Virus record (IMG/VR): IMGVR_UViG_3300046517_002304
Span: 1 to 64,000 of that record
DNA length: 64,000 nt
Reading direction: 5' to 3' (one strand)
Source: a virus
The position numbers were made by a program, and so were the translations under genes. Under the pieces are notes generated by a model that was given only the letters and a program-made list of their open reading frames with translations, had not been told where the DNA came from and did not search any database. The first letter of the stretch is position 1. Each line of letters begins with the position of its first letter. Of the stretch, positions 36,933 to 63,577 are shown piece by piece.

Positions 36933-37360
36933 ACTAATTTAATAAAATCTCTATTAGCCAACTTTGCTCTGGGGGCAGTAAGTATTCCGCTGCACTCATT
37001 AACTTGCGTAATCCCGCTGCAATTAAAGTATATGGAGCCAGTACAACAATCTGCATTCCATGGATCAGAATGAACAACTTCACCGTGCCATACAACATTA
37101 TTAAACTTATTAGAAATTACATTAGCCCATTTGATTCCATCGTCACTAAACCATATGTCTATTATGAATTCTGAAGGAGCACTATACTCAGTGGGAATAG
37201 CTCTCAAATCTTCAGAATAGCAGCCTGATACCCATCGGCTAAATGGGAGGCAGTTCCAGAAACCAGAACTAATGTAAAACTTATTATAGCTATCTTCTAA
37301 TTTAGCTGGTGGATTCCATAAAACCAAATCAGAATCTCTTACTACAAACCTGGTTTGCAT
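36914..37360 (-). CDS. Hypothetical protein in repeat-flanked cassette
   Basis: 148 residues, rich in Trp, Cys and Ser, beta-rich; no signal peptide. Not recognised. The gene is exactly framed by 25-bp direct repeats that contain its start and stop junctions, so recombination between them would remove it and leave both neighbouring genes intact. Confidence 0.55.
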   Translation of the reverse strand: MQTRFVVRDSDLVLWNPPAKLEDSYNKFYISSGFWNCLPFSRWVSGCYSEDLRAIPTEYSAPSEFIIDIWFSDDGIKWANVISNKFNNVVWHGEVVHSDPWNADCCTGSIYFNCSGITQVNECSGILTAPRAKLANRDFIKLVKDFVI

Positions 37361-37378
37361 TATATCACGAAATCCTTA
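37354..37378 (-). repeat. 25-bp direct repeat, copy 2
   Basis: Second perfect copy, 446 bp from the first. It carries the KDFVI end of the sigma-like gene and the ATG of the cassette gene. Confidence 0.9.
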
Positions 37379-37902
37379 TCGCTAAGAGAAACTAATCCAA
37401 TCCTAATTCCACTATCCTTGGTCACTTTTTTACCAATATGCTTAGTGGCATTCCAAATAATTGACTTAATATAAATTTCAAATTTCCTGTTAACCAATAG
37501 TTTAGCGCTTACATCTGGAAAAAGCTCTTTGGGAACATATCTATTAAGAATTAAATCAAGCATATTCTCTTGATGATCCCCAAAGGTACGCTTGTTCGCA
37601 CCATGGTGTCTACGATTTTCCCAAAGCCGCTCTAGTTCGCAAACTATACAAAAAATAAACTTATCCTTACAATATGCCTTAGCAATTTCTAATGAATCCT
37701 CAATATATGTCTGCCGCTTAAAATAAACAGCAGCCTTAGTTAAGGCCATTTTTGTTTCTTGAATTACGTCTTCAATTTCTAAGAAACTTCCGCTGTTGTA
37801 ATTGCGTCTTAATAGCTTCCAAGAAGCATCATAACAAAGACGACCATACTTCTTATCTAATAACGCATACTCATCATTAGTTATCGCAAACTTATTCTTC
37901 AT
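37360..37902 (-). CDS. Possible sigma factor, gp55-like
   Basis: 180 residues (T4 gp55 is 185). EIEDVIQETKMALTKAAVYF resembles sigma70 region 2.1/2.2, and FIFCIVCELERLWENRRHHG the region 2.3/2.4 helix; no region 4 is present, as in gp55. This would be the protein that directs host RNA polymerase to TATAAATA-type late promoters, which fits the many such boxes here. Similarity is by pattern only. A GATATATC box lies 4 nt before the ATG. Confidence 0.45.
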   Translation of the reverse strand: MKNKFAITNDEYALLDKKYGRLCYDASWKLLRRNYNSGSFLEIEDVIQETKMALTKAAVYFKRQTYIEDSLEIAKAYCKDKFIFCIVCELERLWENRRHHGANKRTFGDHQENMLDLILNRYVPKELFPDVSAKLLVNRKFEIYIKSIIWNATKHIGKKVTKDSGIRIGLVSLSDKDFVI

Positions 37903-37924: not shown

Positions 37925-39145
37925 TTATACTCCTTTAGTTTCGGCTACATTTAGTTTCAACCCAGGGTAAAAATCATCATCTTTCTCCAATACATGAATT
38001 ATACTATTCAAAGTATCTGTATCTCCAGCGTCAAGCTGTACGACATAACCGTCATGAATATTAAACATGATATTTTTGTGTTTGTGGAAAAGTTGAATTA
38101 GTTTATGCTGGCAAACTGTTGCAGCGGCTGACTGTATCAGGAAATTCCCAACCTGATATTTATGATCAACCTTCTTAATTCTACCAAAATAATTCTGCGC
38201 TACCGTGTCGCTATTAACGCTATCCAACCACTTAAAAACATCGGGAATTCTATTTTTTATTAAAGACAAAATCTTAACAACATGCTCCCTGCCTATACCA
38301 GAATTTTCTGATAACGTGTCTGGACCACCACCATAAATAAATGGTAAAAATAATAACTTCATCTTCTTGCGAGATGCAGATGAGCATTCTTGCCTAAACA
38401 AATCTTTGTATAAGTTACAATAAAAATCAGAGCCGTTAATAAGTTTAAGCAACTCTTTGTCTTGTGACAACCACTGTAGAACAGAAACTTCCATATGCTT
38501 GTAATCAACTGTCCAAATTTCCTTATTATATCCACTTGGTTTTATCTTCTCTTTAATTTCCGGCGACAAAGTATGAGGGACAATATATCTTTCATTTACC
38601 TTGCTACACGACATCCTGCCTTGTGACTGCCCTTCAATCTCATAATTAGTATACCGGACATTTTTGCCGACGATTATTTTCATATTCTCTAATGACGGAA
38701 TGACTTCGGTAATCAAAGGAAGATGAACATTTTTATAGACCGATTTCCATGTATCCGGCAACTCTTTAAAAATACCAACGGCATCTAAAAACGTCTCGGG
38801 GCAAGAAACGGGTAAGCCGCAAAAAGCGGCAATTACCTTTAAATCTATAATCTTTCCATCAAATTTAGAAAAACCGTTATCTCCAAATCTATGTTTTATA
38901 TGCGAAACAAATCTCTTAAAATCATATACTAAAATCGTTTTCTGATGAAAGAGTTCTTGCAAAACTGTTAAATTACTTCTAAAACTACCGTCTATTTCAA
39001 AATTAAAACAGTAGTTTTGATTACTCAATTCTAGTTTTCCAGAAAATGTATCTGTGAAATCAACGATTTCTGGAATCGTCCTAAAGAAAAGAACGCCGCT
39101 ATCCTTAAAATGACTAATATGACTCACAAAATCAAATAAAAGCAT
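37925..39145 (-). CDS. Family-A DNA polymerase
   Basis: 406 residues, short for the family. Palm motifs are intact: GRMSCSKVN (176-184), motif A DYKHME (D214, steric-gate E219), motif B with R259, K260 and YGG (271-273), and motif C IHDG (H364, D365). The N-terminal 150 residues contain a YDFKRFVSHI and IDLKVIAAFCGL layout recalling a worn-down 3'-5' exonuclease, without its acidic metal residues visible. It is likely the main replicative polymerase, replacing the family-B gp43 of T4. No SD before the ATG. Confidence 0.85.
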   Translation of the reverse strand: MLLFDFVSHISHFKDSGVLFFRTIPEIVDFTDTFSGKLELSNQNYCFNFEIDGSFRSNLTVLQELFHQKTILVYDFKRFVSHIKHRFGDNGFSKFDGKIIDLKVIAAFCGLPVSCPETFLDAVGIFKELPDTWKSVYKNVHLPLITEVIPSLENMKIIVGKNVRYTNYEIEGQSQGRMSCSKVNERYIVPHTLSPEIKEKIKPSGYNKEIWTVDYKHMEVSVLQWLSQDKELLKLINGSDFYCNLYKDLFRQECSSASRKKMKLLFLPFIYGGGPDTLSENSGIGREHVVKILSLIKNRIPDVFKWLDSVNSDTVAQNYFGRIKKVDHKYQVGNFLIQSAAATVCQHKLIQLFHKHKNIMFNIHDGYVVQLDAGDTDTLNSIIHVLEKDDDFYPGLKLNVAETKGV

Positions 39146-39154
39146 GTGTACCAG

Positions 39155-40366
39155 TTATCGTGAAATTTCCACTGCGACGTTAAGATTCAACTTAAAAAAC
39201 TCATCTTGTATGACGGATGCTATGTATTCTGCGTGTTTGTCTTGTGCTAAGATACAATCATGAACTGTCAATATCTGCACATCTGGATTTTCACTCATTA
39301 TCCTTTTGCAAATCTTATGAATGAATATATCCGACTCAATCTTCTGCAATTCTCTGGCTAAGTTTTTATAATCATCTTTCTTGTAGAACTGGATAGCATC
39401 TGAAATCGTTGGGAAATACTTAGCAAATTTTTTTGCAGTCTTTCTACCAAAGAAAACATTTTTAAATAACCGATTTTTTATATTTTTTTTATCACTTTCA
39501 TTTATTTTATATAATTCAGAACAATGATTGTAGAATACACCCATCTCAGTTAGTTTTCTATATTCTAAAACATCCTGATTATTTTTAATATAATTTTTAT
39601 TAATCAATTTATCAACAAGCAGATTCAATAAAAGAGGCTGACAATTCTTTATATCAATTTGGGTTAACTTTTCGCCATTAATCATTAATTGCTTACGATG
39701 AGATCTTTTAAGAGTTGTAATATTGGTGTGCGTTCTGCCATAAGTATCAACATGCAGATATACTTTTTTATTTTTAATCCAATCCACCACCTTGGCATGA
39801 TGTATATTTAACTCGCCAAAATGACTATCATCAATGCTAGTTTGCTTTAAACACGCATATAAATATTCATAAATATTGCCTTTAGCAGTTAATTTATGAC
39901 GATTTCGCTTCTTTAGCTTCTTAATAAGCACCGCATCATCTACGGAAACAGTTCTATATCCATGTTCGTAAAGTGGAGCAATACGATAATTTTGAGAAAA
40001 TCTCCCAACACTATAGGTTTTATTAACTAAAATAACATCGCAATCTATCAATAATTTTTTGTATTCCAAGTACCTTCTAGTAAACATGTTTTCAAGATAC
40101 TTCCAATGCAGCTTGGCCCAAAGATCATGGTCTCTACCATGCGTCATACCCCGCACACACACCATTTCAACAAACCAATACATGCGCTGCAAATGCTTCT
40201 TAGACTTCAAATGTTTATACTTTTCCGGTATGATATTTTCTAAAATTAAATTTTTAGGAACAAATATTCTGTATTTCATACAGTGTACATCGTGCCAAAT
40301 GCATTTTTCCATTAGTGGTATTCGAAAAAAAACACAGGGATGTGTGGCTAATGATTGATAGGACAC
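39155..40366 (-). CDS. Second, divergent family-A-like polymerase
   Basis: 403 residues from a GTG at 40366 (an ATG at 40312 would remove 18). The C-terminal half holds family-A palm motifs: YGRTHTNITTL and R-K-Q-L before motif A QIDIKNCQPLLL (D238), motif B NRLFKNVFFG (297-307) and motif C TVHDCI (H369, D370). The position of the steric-gate Glu is Gln (243). The N-terminal half is Lys/Arg/Tyr-rich and unrelated to exonucleases. It could be a primase-polymerase, a terminal or lesion-bypass enzyme, or an RNA polymerase-like protein. Encoded directly upstream of the first polymerase, same strand. Confidence 0.7.
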   Translation of the reverse strand: MSYQSLATHPCVFFRIPLMEKCIWHDVHCMKYRIFVPKNLILENIIPEKYKHLKSKKHLQRMYWFVEMVCVRGMTHGRDHDLWAKLHWKYLENMFTRRYLEYKKLLIDCDVILVNKTYSVGRFSQNYRIAPLYEHGYRTVSVDDAVLIKKLKKRNRHKLTAKGNIYEYLYACLKQTSIDDSHFGELNIHHAKVVDWIKNKKVYLHVDTYGRTHTNITTLKRSHRKQLMINGEKLTQIDIKNCQPLLLNLLVDKLINKNYIKNNQDVLEYRKLTEMGVFYNHCSELYKINESDKKNIKNRLFKNVFFGRKTAKKFAKYFPTISDAIQFYKKDDYKNLARELQKIESDIFIHKICKRIMSENPDVQILTVHDCILAQDKHAEYIASVIQDEFFKLNLNVAVEISR

Positions 40367-40487: not shown

Positions 40488-41174
40488 ATGATGTTAATAG
40501 AAGAATTGATCTTTAATTATAAGATAACTGATGATAAAGAGAAACTATCAGTATTCATATCTCATCTCTTCTACTCATACGTACAGAAACTCTTTCCTAA
40601 TAATAACATGGTTAGGTTCTCTTGGAAGAAAGACCCTAGAGAAAACATTCTCTTTAAATACTGCTATAAACTTGTAAATGAAACAAGCGGTAAACTTAAC
40701 GCTACCGACTATGAAATATACCTAAGAGCACAAATAGCTGTAATTAAGAACGTTCATGATGTTCTCGCTAAAGATATCATGATTTCCGAACGTTGCTTAG
40801 TAGGAGAAAAGGCGTGGAAAAGATATGTATTTTACAAACATCAGTATGATTTAAAATTACAGCTTAAGTCTGCGAAAGAAGTTGGGGTAAGCTTGCATGA
40901 TTACAGTTTCGTTATTAATGAATTAAAACGATCTAAAAAAGTGCTGACCGCTAAATTAGGTGATTTAAATAAAGAATCTATAGAAAAAGCAGTAAATGGC
41001 AGAGCTATTTTTAGATGGCATGCCGTTGGTTTAATTTCAGGTTACTATCTTGCCTTATCGGAAATTGCTAAGAAAAGCCAATTTTATCCTGACTTGTCAT
41101 TGTATAGAGACGGCCTGACGCCTGAAGTTAAAGAGTTTTTTAAACAAGAATTTGGCTATGAGATTATAAATTAA
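40488..41174 (+). CDS. Hypothetical protein, 228 aa
   Basis: Helical, basic (many Lys), no recognised family. Divergent from the polymerases. No SD; the start could be the second ATG (40491), which lies 4 nt after GATAAACA. Its stop overlaps the convergent gene by 4 bp (TTAA). Context hints at a replication or regulatory role only. Confidence 0.55.
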   Translation: MMLIEELIFNYKITDDKEKLSVFISHLFYSYVQKLFPNNNMVRFSWKKDPRENILFKYCYKLVNETSGKLNATDYEIYLRAQIAVIKNVHDVLAKDIMISERCLVGEKAWKRYVFYKHQYDLKLQLKSAKEVGVSLHDYSFVINELKRSKKVLTAKLGDLNKESIEKAVNGRAIFRWHAVGLISGYYLALSEIAKKSQFYPDLSLYRDGLTPEVKEFFKQEFGYEIIN

Positions 41175-43205: not shown

Positions 43206-43496
43206 ATGCAAACCTTTAAACAGTATTGGGAATCTCGGGTTTTAGGCGCAGATGACATTAAGCGAATTATCTTTAACTCGCTTGGGATCAATATTGACAG
43301 CGCGCAGGAAAAAGACTATCTTAACAATAATCTTTCTGACTACAGCAACCGAAATGAGATTTTACGCGCACAGGCGATTAGAGAGTTGCCAAATTTTGAT
43401 GAAATCAAAAGAGTTATTACCGTAGACTACAACAAATTCACAATCGGTACTCTAATAAGCTACATAGACAAATTGGTAAATCCAGGAGAAATCTGA
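43206..43496 (+). CDS. Small tagged helical protein
   Basis: 96 residues. N-terminus MQTFKQYWESR carries the tag with no classic cut motif. The rest is helical. Its TGA overlaps the next ATG (TGATG), coupling it to the amidinotransferase gene. Likely packaged internal protein. Confidence 0.6.
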   Translation: MQTFKQYWESRVLGADDIKRIIFNSLGINIDSAQEKDYLNNNLSDYSNRNEILRAQAIRELPNFDEIKRVITVDYNKFTIGTLISYIDKLVNPGEI

Positions 43497-44293
43497 TGCC
43501 ACAAAGATTTTTGATGTCGTATCCAGAGTTTTTTGACGTAAATTACGAAATCAACACTTGGATGGACGTAAAAAACAAGCCTGATAACTTTCTTGCCAAT
43601 AAACAGTGGCGAAGACTGTATCAGTTGCTTATTACATTAGGGGCAAATGTTGACGTTGTAGACGGCCATAAAGATTATCCTGATTTAGTTTTTACTGCTA
43701 ATGCAGGAACGGTTAAGGGAAAGGTTTTTATTCCTTCTAATTTCAAGTATAAGGAACGACAAGGCGAATCTTTGATATATAACAGATGGTTTGCCGAAAA
43801 TGGTTTTGAGTTAAAATCTCTACCATCAGAAGTTTCTTTTGAAGGGCACGGAGACGCGATATTCTTTCAAGACAAACTGATTCAGGGACATGGATTTCGT
43901 AGTTCTTATGAATCTCATCAAAAATTAAGCGACTTATTAGAAACCGAAGTTGTGCCTGTAGAGTTGACGAATGGTCATTTTTATCATTTAGATACTTGTC
44001 TTTTTGTTCTGAATCAAGCCACTCCATCTATTATTTATTTCCCAGGCGCTTTTTCACCAGAGAGTGTGGCGGTAATTGAAGGATTACCATGCGATAAACT
44101 ACAAATATCAGAAGATGAAGCGCATGGATTTGCTTGTAATGCAATACAGGTAGGAGGGTGCGTGATTTTATCTGAAGGATGTGAAGAAACTGCGGAATGG
44201 CTAATGGATAGAGGGATTAAAGTATTTTTTAACGATGTAAGCCAGTTTAACTTGGCTGGTGGCGGGAACGCCTGTATGGTGTTGGAAATTTAA
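43496..44293 (+). CDS. Amidinotransferase/dimethylargininase-family enzyme
   Basis: 265 residues of the pentein fold. Asp/Asn block PDLVFTANAG (62-71), FEGHGDA (115-121, D120), FYHLDTCL (H164) and C-terminal nucleophile GGGNACMVLE (C260). Related enzymes hydrolyse dimethylarginine or transfer amidino groups; others hydrolyse arginine. It could release citrulline or ornithine from arginine, or act on modified arginine. AGGAG precedes the ATG. It has no tag and its upstream partner does. Confidence 0.8.
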   Translation: MPQRFLMSYPEFFDVNYEINTWMDVKNKPDNFLANKQWRRLYQLLITLGANVDVVDGHKDYPDLVFTANAGTVKGKVFIPSNFKYKERQGESLIYNRWFAENGFELKSLPSEVSFEGHGDAIFFQDKLIQGHGFRSSYESHQKLSDLLETEVVPVELTNGHFYHLDTCLFVLNQATPSIIYFPGAFSPESVAVIEGLPCDKLQISEDEAHGFACNAIQVGGCVILSEGCEETAEWLMDRGIKVFFNDVSQFNLAGGGNACMVLEI

Positions 44294-61315: not shown

Positions 61316-63577
61316 TTACAAGCTGCATGCTCCTGACTCGCATCCTCTTATTTGAGATTCATCAGTACTATCGACATAACCATCGTTTGAGTTGAGGTAA
61401 TAAAGTGTTTTAATTCCAACTTTCCATGCATATAATTGCTCTTTTATGATCAAACTCATTGGAATTTCTTTGGTCTCAAAGTGATCATAATTATAGTACA
61501 CGTTGGTTGAAATGGACATATCTACGTACTTCTGGCAAGTGGCAGCGATGTTAAGCATTCCGATATTGCTTCGCATGTCAAATGCTTTAGTGTAATGATT
61601 TTTATAACGATTAAATTCTGGTACAATTTGCTTTAAGTTCCCTTTTTTAGATTTTTTAATCGATAAAAGTTGTCTCGGTGCCTCAATTCCATTTGTACTA
61701 TTTTGAATGACCGAAGAACTTTCTACTGGCATAATTGCCGTTAGCGTACTATGTCTTAGTCCGTATTTTATTATATCGGCACGAAGTGCTTCCCAGTTGA
61801 ATGAAAGTTTTCTATCCACGATAGTGTCTACAAACTTTGTGTATGTATCTATTGGCAGGATACCTTGCGAATACTTAGTGAGATTAAATTTTTTGCATGC
61901 TCCTTTTTCCTTAGCAAGATTACAAGATGCCTTAAGTAGATTGTATTGAATTGCTTCCATCCATTCATCTATAAGGTAACATGCTTTTGGATCTTCGTAT
62001 TTTAACTTATTTACAGCAAGAAATGCCGCCAGATTTGTTATTCCCACACCTAGAGATCTTCTATTAACGGCAAAATTTTCTGCCGCCTTAACTGGGTATT
62101 GCTGATGATCAATAACAGCGTCAAGTAATCGTACGATAATATCGCAAACTGATTCTAGTTCGTCAAAATCTTTTATTTTTAATAAATTAACTGCTGATAG
62201 TATGCATACTCCAATTTCTGCATCTGGATCATCTATATGTTTTTGGGGCACTAGAGGCTGGAGAATCTCACAACACAAGTTTGTAACATTGATTTTGTCC
62301 TTGAAACTATTGTGTGAATTAGCATGATCAACGTTTAGGGCATAAATTCTCCCAGTTTCCAATCGTTCGCGTACATATGCTTCCATGAACTCTTTTGCCT
62401 TGACTTTTTTTCTAAATTGTAAACTTTCGTCTTTTTCGTACTTCTTATACAAATCGTCAAATTCAGGAAGACCAAATGCAGAATAAAGCCCTTTTGCCTC
62501 ATGCGGAGAAAATAAGGTAATATAATCATCCGCAATTAATCTTTCATAAAATAATTTACTAAATGAAACGCAGTAGTCTAATTGTCTGACAGAGAATTCA
62601 GCAGTTTTAGAATTATTTTTTAGTGTTATCATTTCCATGGATTCGTAGTGCCAGAATGGAAATGTGACGGTTGCGTTTGCTCCTCTAATTCCATTCTGGC
62701 TGCATGACTTAACCGTTGCCTCAAAAATTTTAGCGTAAGGTATTACTCCAGTGTGCACTACTTCAGATTTGCGAATGGGAGATCCTATTGGGCGAATTCT
62801 CCCAAGATTGATGCCAATCCCCGCTCGTTTACTGGAGTAGTAAGCGACAGACGTTGCCGCACTCATGATTCCTTCCATTGAATCATCAATATCGATTAAG
62901 CAGCATGAACTGTACTGCCGAACTAGTGTTCTAACACCAGCCATTATTGGAGTTGGTAAATTAATTTTAAACTTACTGATATAATCATAGCACTTACGGA
63001 CATAATGTAGACGGCAATCTTCTGGATAATTTGCGAATAAAGTCATAGCAATTAATATGTTCGCAAACTGCGGAGTTTCGTGTAATGTTCCGGTAAGTCG
63101 GTCTTGGCACAAATATTTATCGACTAACTGCTGTAGTCCCGCATAAGTGAAATCATAATCCCTATCATGATTTACAAAGCGATTAATTTTATGAATTTCT
63201 GTTTCGGTATACTTTTCTAAAATAAACTTGTCGTAAATTCCCTTATTTACATTTTCTTGAATTTGCTCTAATAATCGGGGAGGTTCTTCGCCGCCCCAAA
63301 CTTCTTTCCTTACCCAGAATAAAAGTAAACGAGCTGCCACATATTGATATGAGGGAGCATCTTCTGATATCAAATTATTCGCTGATCGAATGAGCAAATT
63401 GTGAATTTCTTTAGTCGAAATGCCATCCACTAATTCCAACTTCGCCCCGACCTCAATTTCCGACACAGAAGTATCTGGATAACCATCACACCCCCAACTT
63501 AAAACCTTATGAATTTTCTCAATATCTAACTCTTCCAGCCGCCCATTCCTCTTCCTTACATTAATTTTTCCCGACAT
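61316..63577 (-). CDS. nrdA: Ribonucleotide reductase class I large subunit
   Basis: 753 residues. An N-terminal ATP-cone (KRNGRLEELDIEKIHK), the YSSCCLIDIDDS active-site Cys, GIGINLGRIRPIG, the central N-L-C-C-E-I triad (catalytic Cys and Glu) and C-terminal GCESGACSL with the redox Cys pair. Full length; no inserted element. SD AAGGA about 11 nt from the ATG, with an extended -10 promoter at 63616-63624. Confidence 0.95.
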   Translation of the reverse strand: MSGKINVRKRNGRLEELDIEKIHKVLSWGCDGYPDTSVSEIEVGAKLELVDGISTKEIHNLLIRSANNLISEDAPSYQYVAARLLLFWVRKEVWGGEEPPRLLEQIQENVNKGIYDKFILEKYTETEIHKINRFVNHDRDYDFTYAGLQQLVDKYLCQDRLTGTLHETPQFANILIAMTLFANYPEDCRLHYVRKCYDYISKFKINLPTPIMAGVRTLVRQYSSCCLIDIDDSMEGIMSAATSVAYYSSKRAGIGINLGRIRPIGSPIRKSEVVHTGVIPYAKIFEATVKSCSQNGIRGANATVTFPFWHYESMEMITLKNNSKTAEFSVRQLDYCVSFSKLFYERLIADDYITLFSPHEAKGLYSAFGLPEFDDLYKKYEKDESLQFRKKVKAKEFMEAYVRERLETGRIYALNVDHANSHNSFKDKINVTNLCCEILQPLVPQKHIDDPDAEIGVCILSAVNLLKIKDFDELESVCDIIVRLLDAVIDHQQYPVKAAENFAVNRRSLGVGITNLAAFLAVNKLKYEDPKACYLIDEWMEAIQYNLLKASCNLAKEKGACKKFNLTKYSQGILPIDTYTKFVDTIVDRKLSFNWEALRADIIKYGLRHSTLTAIMPVESSSVIQNSTNGIEAPRQLLSIKKSKKGNLKQIVPEFNRYKNHYTKAFDMRSNIGMLNIAATCQKYVDMSISTNVYYNYDHFETKEIPMSLIIKEQLYAWKVGIKTLYYLNSNDGYVDSTDESQIRGCESGACSL

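Follow-up and report, generated by a model that had tools for sequence, protein, structure and literature searches.

A TV-Pol-Like Family-A Polymerase Beside a Compact PolI-Like DNA Polymerase in a Huge Phage: A Possible Primase-Polymerase

The P1-P2 Locus

The virus record IMGVR_UViG_3300046517_002304 comprises 511,233 bp and, judging by its relatives, belongs to a huge phage. Its first 64 kb were analysed and are referred to here as the window. Two open reading frames, P1 and P2, are located in the window on the minus strand, both intact and with 9 bp between them (Table 1). It had been predicted that they encode two adjacent, different family-A palms, and this was borne out, for P2 by Pfam and for P1 by the AlphaFold fold and profile comparison. 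The true start of P1 is probably the ATG at position 40279 (residue 30), which gives a protein of 374 amino acids, since relatives at two other loci, L003 and L010, start at P1 Met30 and residues 1-27 have a pLDDT below 50.

Table 1. Features of the P1-P2 locus (positions in the window).
Feature	Position	Strand	Remarks
DnaB-like replicative helicase, about 2 kb downstream of P2	34478..35887	-	PHROG 19, 6e-60; same strand as P2
Third gene of the P1-P2 cluster, conserved, 180 aa, weakly sigma-70 region 2-like	37360..37902	-	E 0.016, below cut-off
P2, compact PolI-like family-A DNA polymerase, 406 aa	37925..39145	-	Pfam DNA_pol_A 1e-17
P2 motif A, D-Y-K-H-M-E with steric-gate Glu	38489..38506	-	
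P1, TV-Pol-like protein, winged helix, thumb and family-A palm	39155..40366	-	403 aa from GTG
P1 motif C, H369-D370 (Klenow H881-D882)	39257..39262	-	D 100/100, H 99/100 where site present
P1 motif B (O-helix), K293, K297, F301, F306-G307 (Klenow R754, K758, F762, Y766-G767)	39446..39490	-	
P1 motif A, D238-I-K-N-C-Q243 (Klenow D705...E710)	39638..39655	-	D 102/102, Q 101/102
P1 residues 29-202, predicted winged-helix DNA-binding domain, then thumb helices	39761..40282	-	AlphaFold pLDDT 82, pTM 0.73
Conserved gene upstream of P1, divergent, 228 aa, no family	40488..41174	+	homologues divergent from P1 in L003, L010

P2 scores 64.6 bits against Pfam PF00476 (cut-off 34.3), and motifs A, B and C are present. 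Aligned with E. coli PolI and T7 DNAP, it keeps the Klenow positions R668, D705, E710, R754, K758, Y766, Q849, H881 and D882. In contrast to DNA polymerase I and its Klenow fragment, P2 is only 406 amino acids long, and Pfam recognises the polymerase domain alone. The description of P2 as a minimal DNA polymerase with the motif A DYKHME was thus confirmed.

In three diverged phages, P1 is directly followed by P2. The gene order P1, P2 and sigma-like gene is kept in three phages, LR756511 and G007 among those sharing it, and homologues of P2 adjoin homologues of P1 in LR756511 and L010. At about 80 other huge-phage loci, P1 occurs without an adjacent PolA, so a hand-over from P1 to P2 would not be general. 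Elsewhere in the window, a match to dimethylarginine dimethylaminohydrolase (43496-44293, plus strand; Pfam DDAH_eukar, 3e-12), which is unexpected in a phage, and a ribonucleotide reductase large subunit (61316-63577, minus strand; PHROG 84, 1e-300) were observed.

Replisome of the Phage

The same genome encodes a PolIII alpha of family C, spread over two genes, together with a Zn-ribbon/TOPRIM primase-like protein and the DnaB-like helicase. The replisome had been described as T4-like, which was not supported: PolIII alpha and the primase-like protein are present, and the genome search gave no PF00136 PolB, no match to the DnaG core domain and one Pfam PolA only. P1 and P2 add to this PolIII-type replisome. 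In view of PolIII alpha, P2 is unlikely to be the main replicase, and P1 as the sole phage primase was rejected given the primase-like protein.

The two PolIII alpha genes (G000:C1:498317-499651, minus strand, and G000:C1:485239-487689, plus strand, the latter at L093) are located about 11 kb apart and encode 444 and 816 amino acids; there seems to be an overlap between these halves near the start of the palm. In LR756511 and G007, PolIII alpha is encoded in one ORF of about 1,190 amino acids, and no PF07733 match was obtained in the clade-B phages. The primase-like protein (L092:1444-2436; G000, around 190-192 kb) has 330 amino acids with a DnaG Zn-ribbon and Toprim_2 and is likely the phage TOPRIM primase. 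A Toprim_2 match is also found in LR756511 and G007.

Fold and Catalytic Motifs of P1

No match to P1 was found in Pfam, NCBIfam or PADLOC, and no significant one in PHROGs. Single-sequence searches of Pfam, PHROGs and PDB sequences gave chance-level matches only, profile searches of PDB sequences with the P1 family gave nothing, and among the relatives the PHROGs matches were marginal at most. Pfam PF00476 did not exceed its cut-off for P1 or any of 15 family members; PADLOC also had no match for 15 members, and a place in a defence system was rejected. The kinship with PolA surfaced only by profile-profile and fold comparison. An AlphaFold model built from 69 sequences (pLDDT 85, pTM 0.81) has the fold of a family-A palm, and family-A DNA polymerases are its top PDB matches in Foldseek. 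With VIA-align, the model matches Pol theta (Z 15.3), Bst PolI (15.0) and T7 DNAP (14.9) over about 230 residues. The structure prediction that had been proposed as a check on P1 thus yielded a palm with Z of about 15, and both metal-binding Asp positions are kept.

A profile of the 102-member P1 family was matched to a PolA profile by hhalign with an E of 4.8e-8 and a probability of 95, while a reversed Klenow control gave an E of 0.57. The hairpin Arg and motifs A, B and C are all aligned in this register, which predicts the pairs D238=D705, Q243=E710, K297=K758, F306=Y766 and D370=D882; it was used in place of a smaller comparison with 15 sequences, in which motif A was shifted by two residues. 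R211, D238 and K297 are invariant in the family, and D370 is missing only from two truncated ORFs; together with the near-invariance of D370 and Q243, this indicates conservation far beyond chance. R211 (102/102) is the hairpin Arg between model strands 203-205 and 211-213. Motif B has the spacing K293-x3-K297-x3-F301-x4-F306-G307, and position 293 is Arg in 61 and Lys in 37 of the 102 members, P1 itself having KxxxK. The claim that P1 has palm motifs A, B and C with a Gln in place of Glu therefore stood after alignment to Klenow and holds across the family.

The distance between the hairpin Arg and motif A differs between the two proteins. From R211 to D238 it is 27 residues in P1 and 26-30 in the family, versus 37 in both E. 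coli PolI and P2 and 46 in T7 DNAP, and the P1 model has a helix of only four residues before motif A. By this spacing, short in P1 and long in P2, P1 resembles initiators and P2 extenders.

The Steric-Gate Position and the Sugar Pocket

Position 243 is Gln in 101 of the 102 family members; the sole exception (L158:8501-10066) has His, in the motif A DMRNCH. At position 306, which corresponds to Klenow Tyr766, 92 members have Phe and 8 have Tyr. CCPol of SCCmec keeps both Glu174 (E710) and Phe225 (F762) and uses only dNTPs for priming (PMC7581432). As Gln243 is kept across phages and several bacterial phyla, it appears to be under selection rather than decaying, and from the sequences a remodelled sugar pocket is predicted for the P1 family, with Gln for Glu710 and Phe for Tyr766. 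Gln almost equals Glu in shape and may still exclude a 2'-OH. The step from Gln243 to ribonucleotide use by P1 was not supported, since this conserved residue is close to Glu in shape and CCPol primes while keeping Glu, with dNTPs only. Gln243 does not predict ribonucleotide use, and for the substrate of P1 we lean towards dNTPs over rNTPs.

The N-Terminal Half of P1

The N-terminal half of P1 had been described as basic and novel. It is basic, with 36 K+R versus 19 D+E; the novelty was not upheld, because it is a probable winged helix. When modelled alone, it gives weak matches, almost all of them to winged-helix proteins; VIA-align ranks the N-domains of replication initiators first (4pql, Z 6.0; 5kbj, Z 5.3), and the top Foldseek match is 4pt7. 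No OB fold is among the matches listed. As a Z below 8 may reflect a common arrangement, these matches support a winged helix and not a relationship to RepA. Going by the model, a winged helix is the best reading of the N-terminal half, its closest, if weak, resemblance being to those of plasmid replication initiators.

Relatives of P1 and Their Distribution

A search for relatives in plasmids and phages had been suggested, and they were found in huge phages, IMG/VR contigs and one Hymenobacter plasmid. Distinct relatives number about 100 and come from huge phages, the plasmid, and mobile elements found in Bacteroidota, Planctomycetota and Verrucomicrobiota. The public huge-phage genomes that carry them are 595-735 kb in size, and 135 places were found in IMG/VR, near-duplicates included. 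Relatives are present in 16 of 395 Bacteroidota and 5 of 392 Planctomycetota genomes, with further ones in Verrucomicrobiota. On the Hymenobacter plasmid, a replication initiation protein is annotated separately, and the P1 relative there was rejected as the plasmid replication protein. Bacterial relatives are often found near tyrosine integrases, AAA_24 ATPases or RadC; integrase-like genes lie near several of them, three being confirmed by Pfam.

In the tree of the family, where many of the branches to bacterial members are long and uncertain, the main huge-phage clade forms one group (100/100) and the clade of the window another. In most huge phages of clade B, conserved proteins lie on both sides of P1, one of 440 aa upstream (L005:9867-11189) and one of 178 aa downstream (L005:12814-13350), neither with a convincing Pfam family. 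One bacterial relative (L145:9023-11083) has 686 amino acids and a C-terminal extension that, by eye, reads like a GIY-YIG endonuclease region. In Draconibacterium orientale, two relatives (L100 and L101) are in pieces and look like decaying copies.

Possible Functions of P1

As a whole, P1 may be an active metal-dependent polymerase of family A and of the TV-Pol type that initiates DNA chains de novo, a reading that we consider quite possible, if somewhat short of probable. The computed support for it consists of the palm fold, the catalytic residues, Q243, the short spacing from R to D and the order of the P1, P2 and sigma-like genes. The winged helix would hold P1 on a DNA site or a single-stranded template, and, to judge from CcPol and T7 RNA polymerase, the short helix before motif A could make space for the first nucleotide with its triphosphate. 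A short primer would next be synthesised by the palm, and P2 or the phage PolIII alpha might extend it. The P1-P2 pair is thus best read as a DNA-guided primase-polymerase with a PolI-like extender at its side. With regard to the primase role raised by the original prediction, priming is plausible, as it was predicted for TV-Pols (PMC2579912) and CCPol primes with MP (PMC7581432); the step from Gln to ribonucleotides is the part that was not supported. A second primase is not needed, because a TOPRIM primase-like protein is already encoded in the genome and Toprim_2 is found in LR756511 and G007.

Since the phage already has that protein and a replicase, the strongest rival is that P1 serves as an accessory DNA polymerase, dependent on a primer, in repair, the filling of gaps or the bypass of lesions; its DNA-binding domain would recruit it, and its unusual sugar pocket would tolerate damaged or modified nucleotides. 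A second palm without a recognised exonuclease suits this role, and the authors who described divPolA2 suggest the same for a comparable extra phage PolA (PMC11348598). However, the shortened helix and the winged helix would be superfluous for it, and relatives of P1 reside in integrase-bearing mobile elements, a setting in which replication functions are common; repair is rather unlikely. A role for P1 as a single-subunit RNA polymerase, for phage transcription or RNA primers, is distinctly improbable; it would act with the sigma-like product, Q243 and F306 forming a ribose-tolerant pocket. As this reading would have it, none of the 102 members retains the steric-gate Glu (Gln in 101, His in 1) and Tyr766 is replaced in 94, and yeast mitochondrial RNAP also matches the P1 model (Z 14.1, rmsd 5.9), but DNA polymerases match best and T7 RNAP gave no profile match to the P1 family. 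The sigma-70-region-2-like gene is located two genes downstream of P1, although its match scores under the curated cut-off and most relatives lack such a gene as a neighbour. In addition, Gln can still block the 2'-OH, whereas T7 RNAP has Gly542 at the position of P1 Gln243 and keeps Tyr639 at that of Phe306. A motif A without Glu together with an O-helix Tyr639 is the mark of T7-like RNAPs, and P1 has Gln243 and Phe306.

The weak resemblance of the winged helix to plasmid initiators is also consistent with P1 acting mainly as a site-specific initiator or regulator, with the palm as a relic or for protein contacts only. This is very improbable, as the palm Asp pair, the motif B Lys and the hairpin Arg are kept in about 100 proteins from several phyla.

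Returning to chain initiation by P1, a bolder and quite unlikely extension is that the DIxNSQ family constitutes a further natural kind of primase. Here, a family-A palm would be joined to an initiator-like winged helix choosing start sites on phage or element DNA, the remodelled pocket (Gln for Glu710, Phe for Tyr766) would accept ribonucleotides, and in one phage clade the adjacent PolI-like extender would complete a two-polymerase relay. The P1 family is large, recurs in huge phages, has its own DNA-binding domain and shows a conserved change at the family-A residue whose part in sugar discrimination has been studied best; it is thus a natural system in which to test sugar choice and primer-free chain start in family-A polymerases.

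Comparison with Known Systems

Additional divergent PolA proteins beside the regular DNAP, divPolA1 and divPolA2, have been described in Caudoviricetes phages (PMC11348598). divPolA2 also has a globular N-terminal domain, and its palm is weakly similar to that of P1 (E 0.0024, prob 12). Motif A reads DFDGYH in one example of divPolA1 and DFKAFE in one of divPolA2, versus DIxNSQ in the P1 family. By profile comparison, divPolA1 has no significant sequence relation to P1 or P2, and a relationship of P2 to divPolA1 was rejected (E 0.28).

CCPol primes together with its OB-fold partner MP, and only with it (PMC7581432). CCPol-MP and the PolA-SSB primases (PMC10061031) resemble P1 in belonging to family A, lacking a full exonuclease, having a short helix before motif A and occurring in mobile elements. 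The shortened helix has been tied to de novo initiation, as it gives room for the first triphosphate (PMC10061031, PMC7581432). In family searches, no MP or OB-fold partner for P1 was identified, its neighbours being without a recognised family.

TV-Pols, minimal polymerases of superfamily A encoded by viruses and mobile elements, are predicted primase-polymerases (Iyer, Abhiman and Aravind 2008, PMC2579912). The primase prediction thus dates from 2008, and CCPol was the sole biochemically characterised TV-Pol known to the 2020 paper. A profile search of Ma-LMM01 with the P1 family, with the TV-Pol of this virus as a possible bridge, gave nothing significant. TV-Pols have 400-600 amino acids, a thumb, a hairpin Arg, two palm Asp, R/K-xxx-K fingers and no recognised nuclease domain, and they occur, as the P1 family does, in viruses and in mobile elements of bacteroidetes, planctomycetes and verrucomicrobia (PMC2579912). 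The P1 family likewise has the two palm Asp, a conserved hairpin Arg and fingers of the RxxxK type; it is found on viral contigs and a plasmid, with integrases near bacterial members and no linked nuclease domain in the part of the neighbours scanned. It differs in its presence in huge phages, the conserved Gln at the E710 position and the winged-helix N-terminus; a subset of the published TV-Pols has an uncharacterised helical domain (PMC2579912). Compared by description, P1 matches the published TV-Pol group in both anatomy and lineages.
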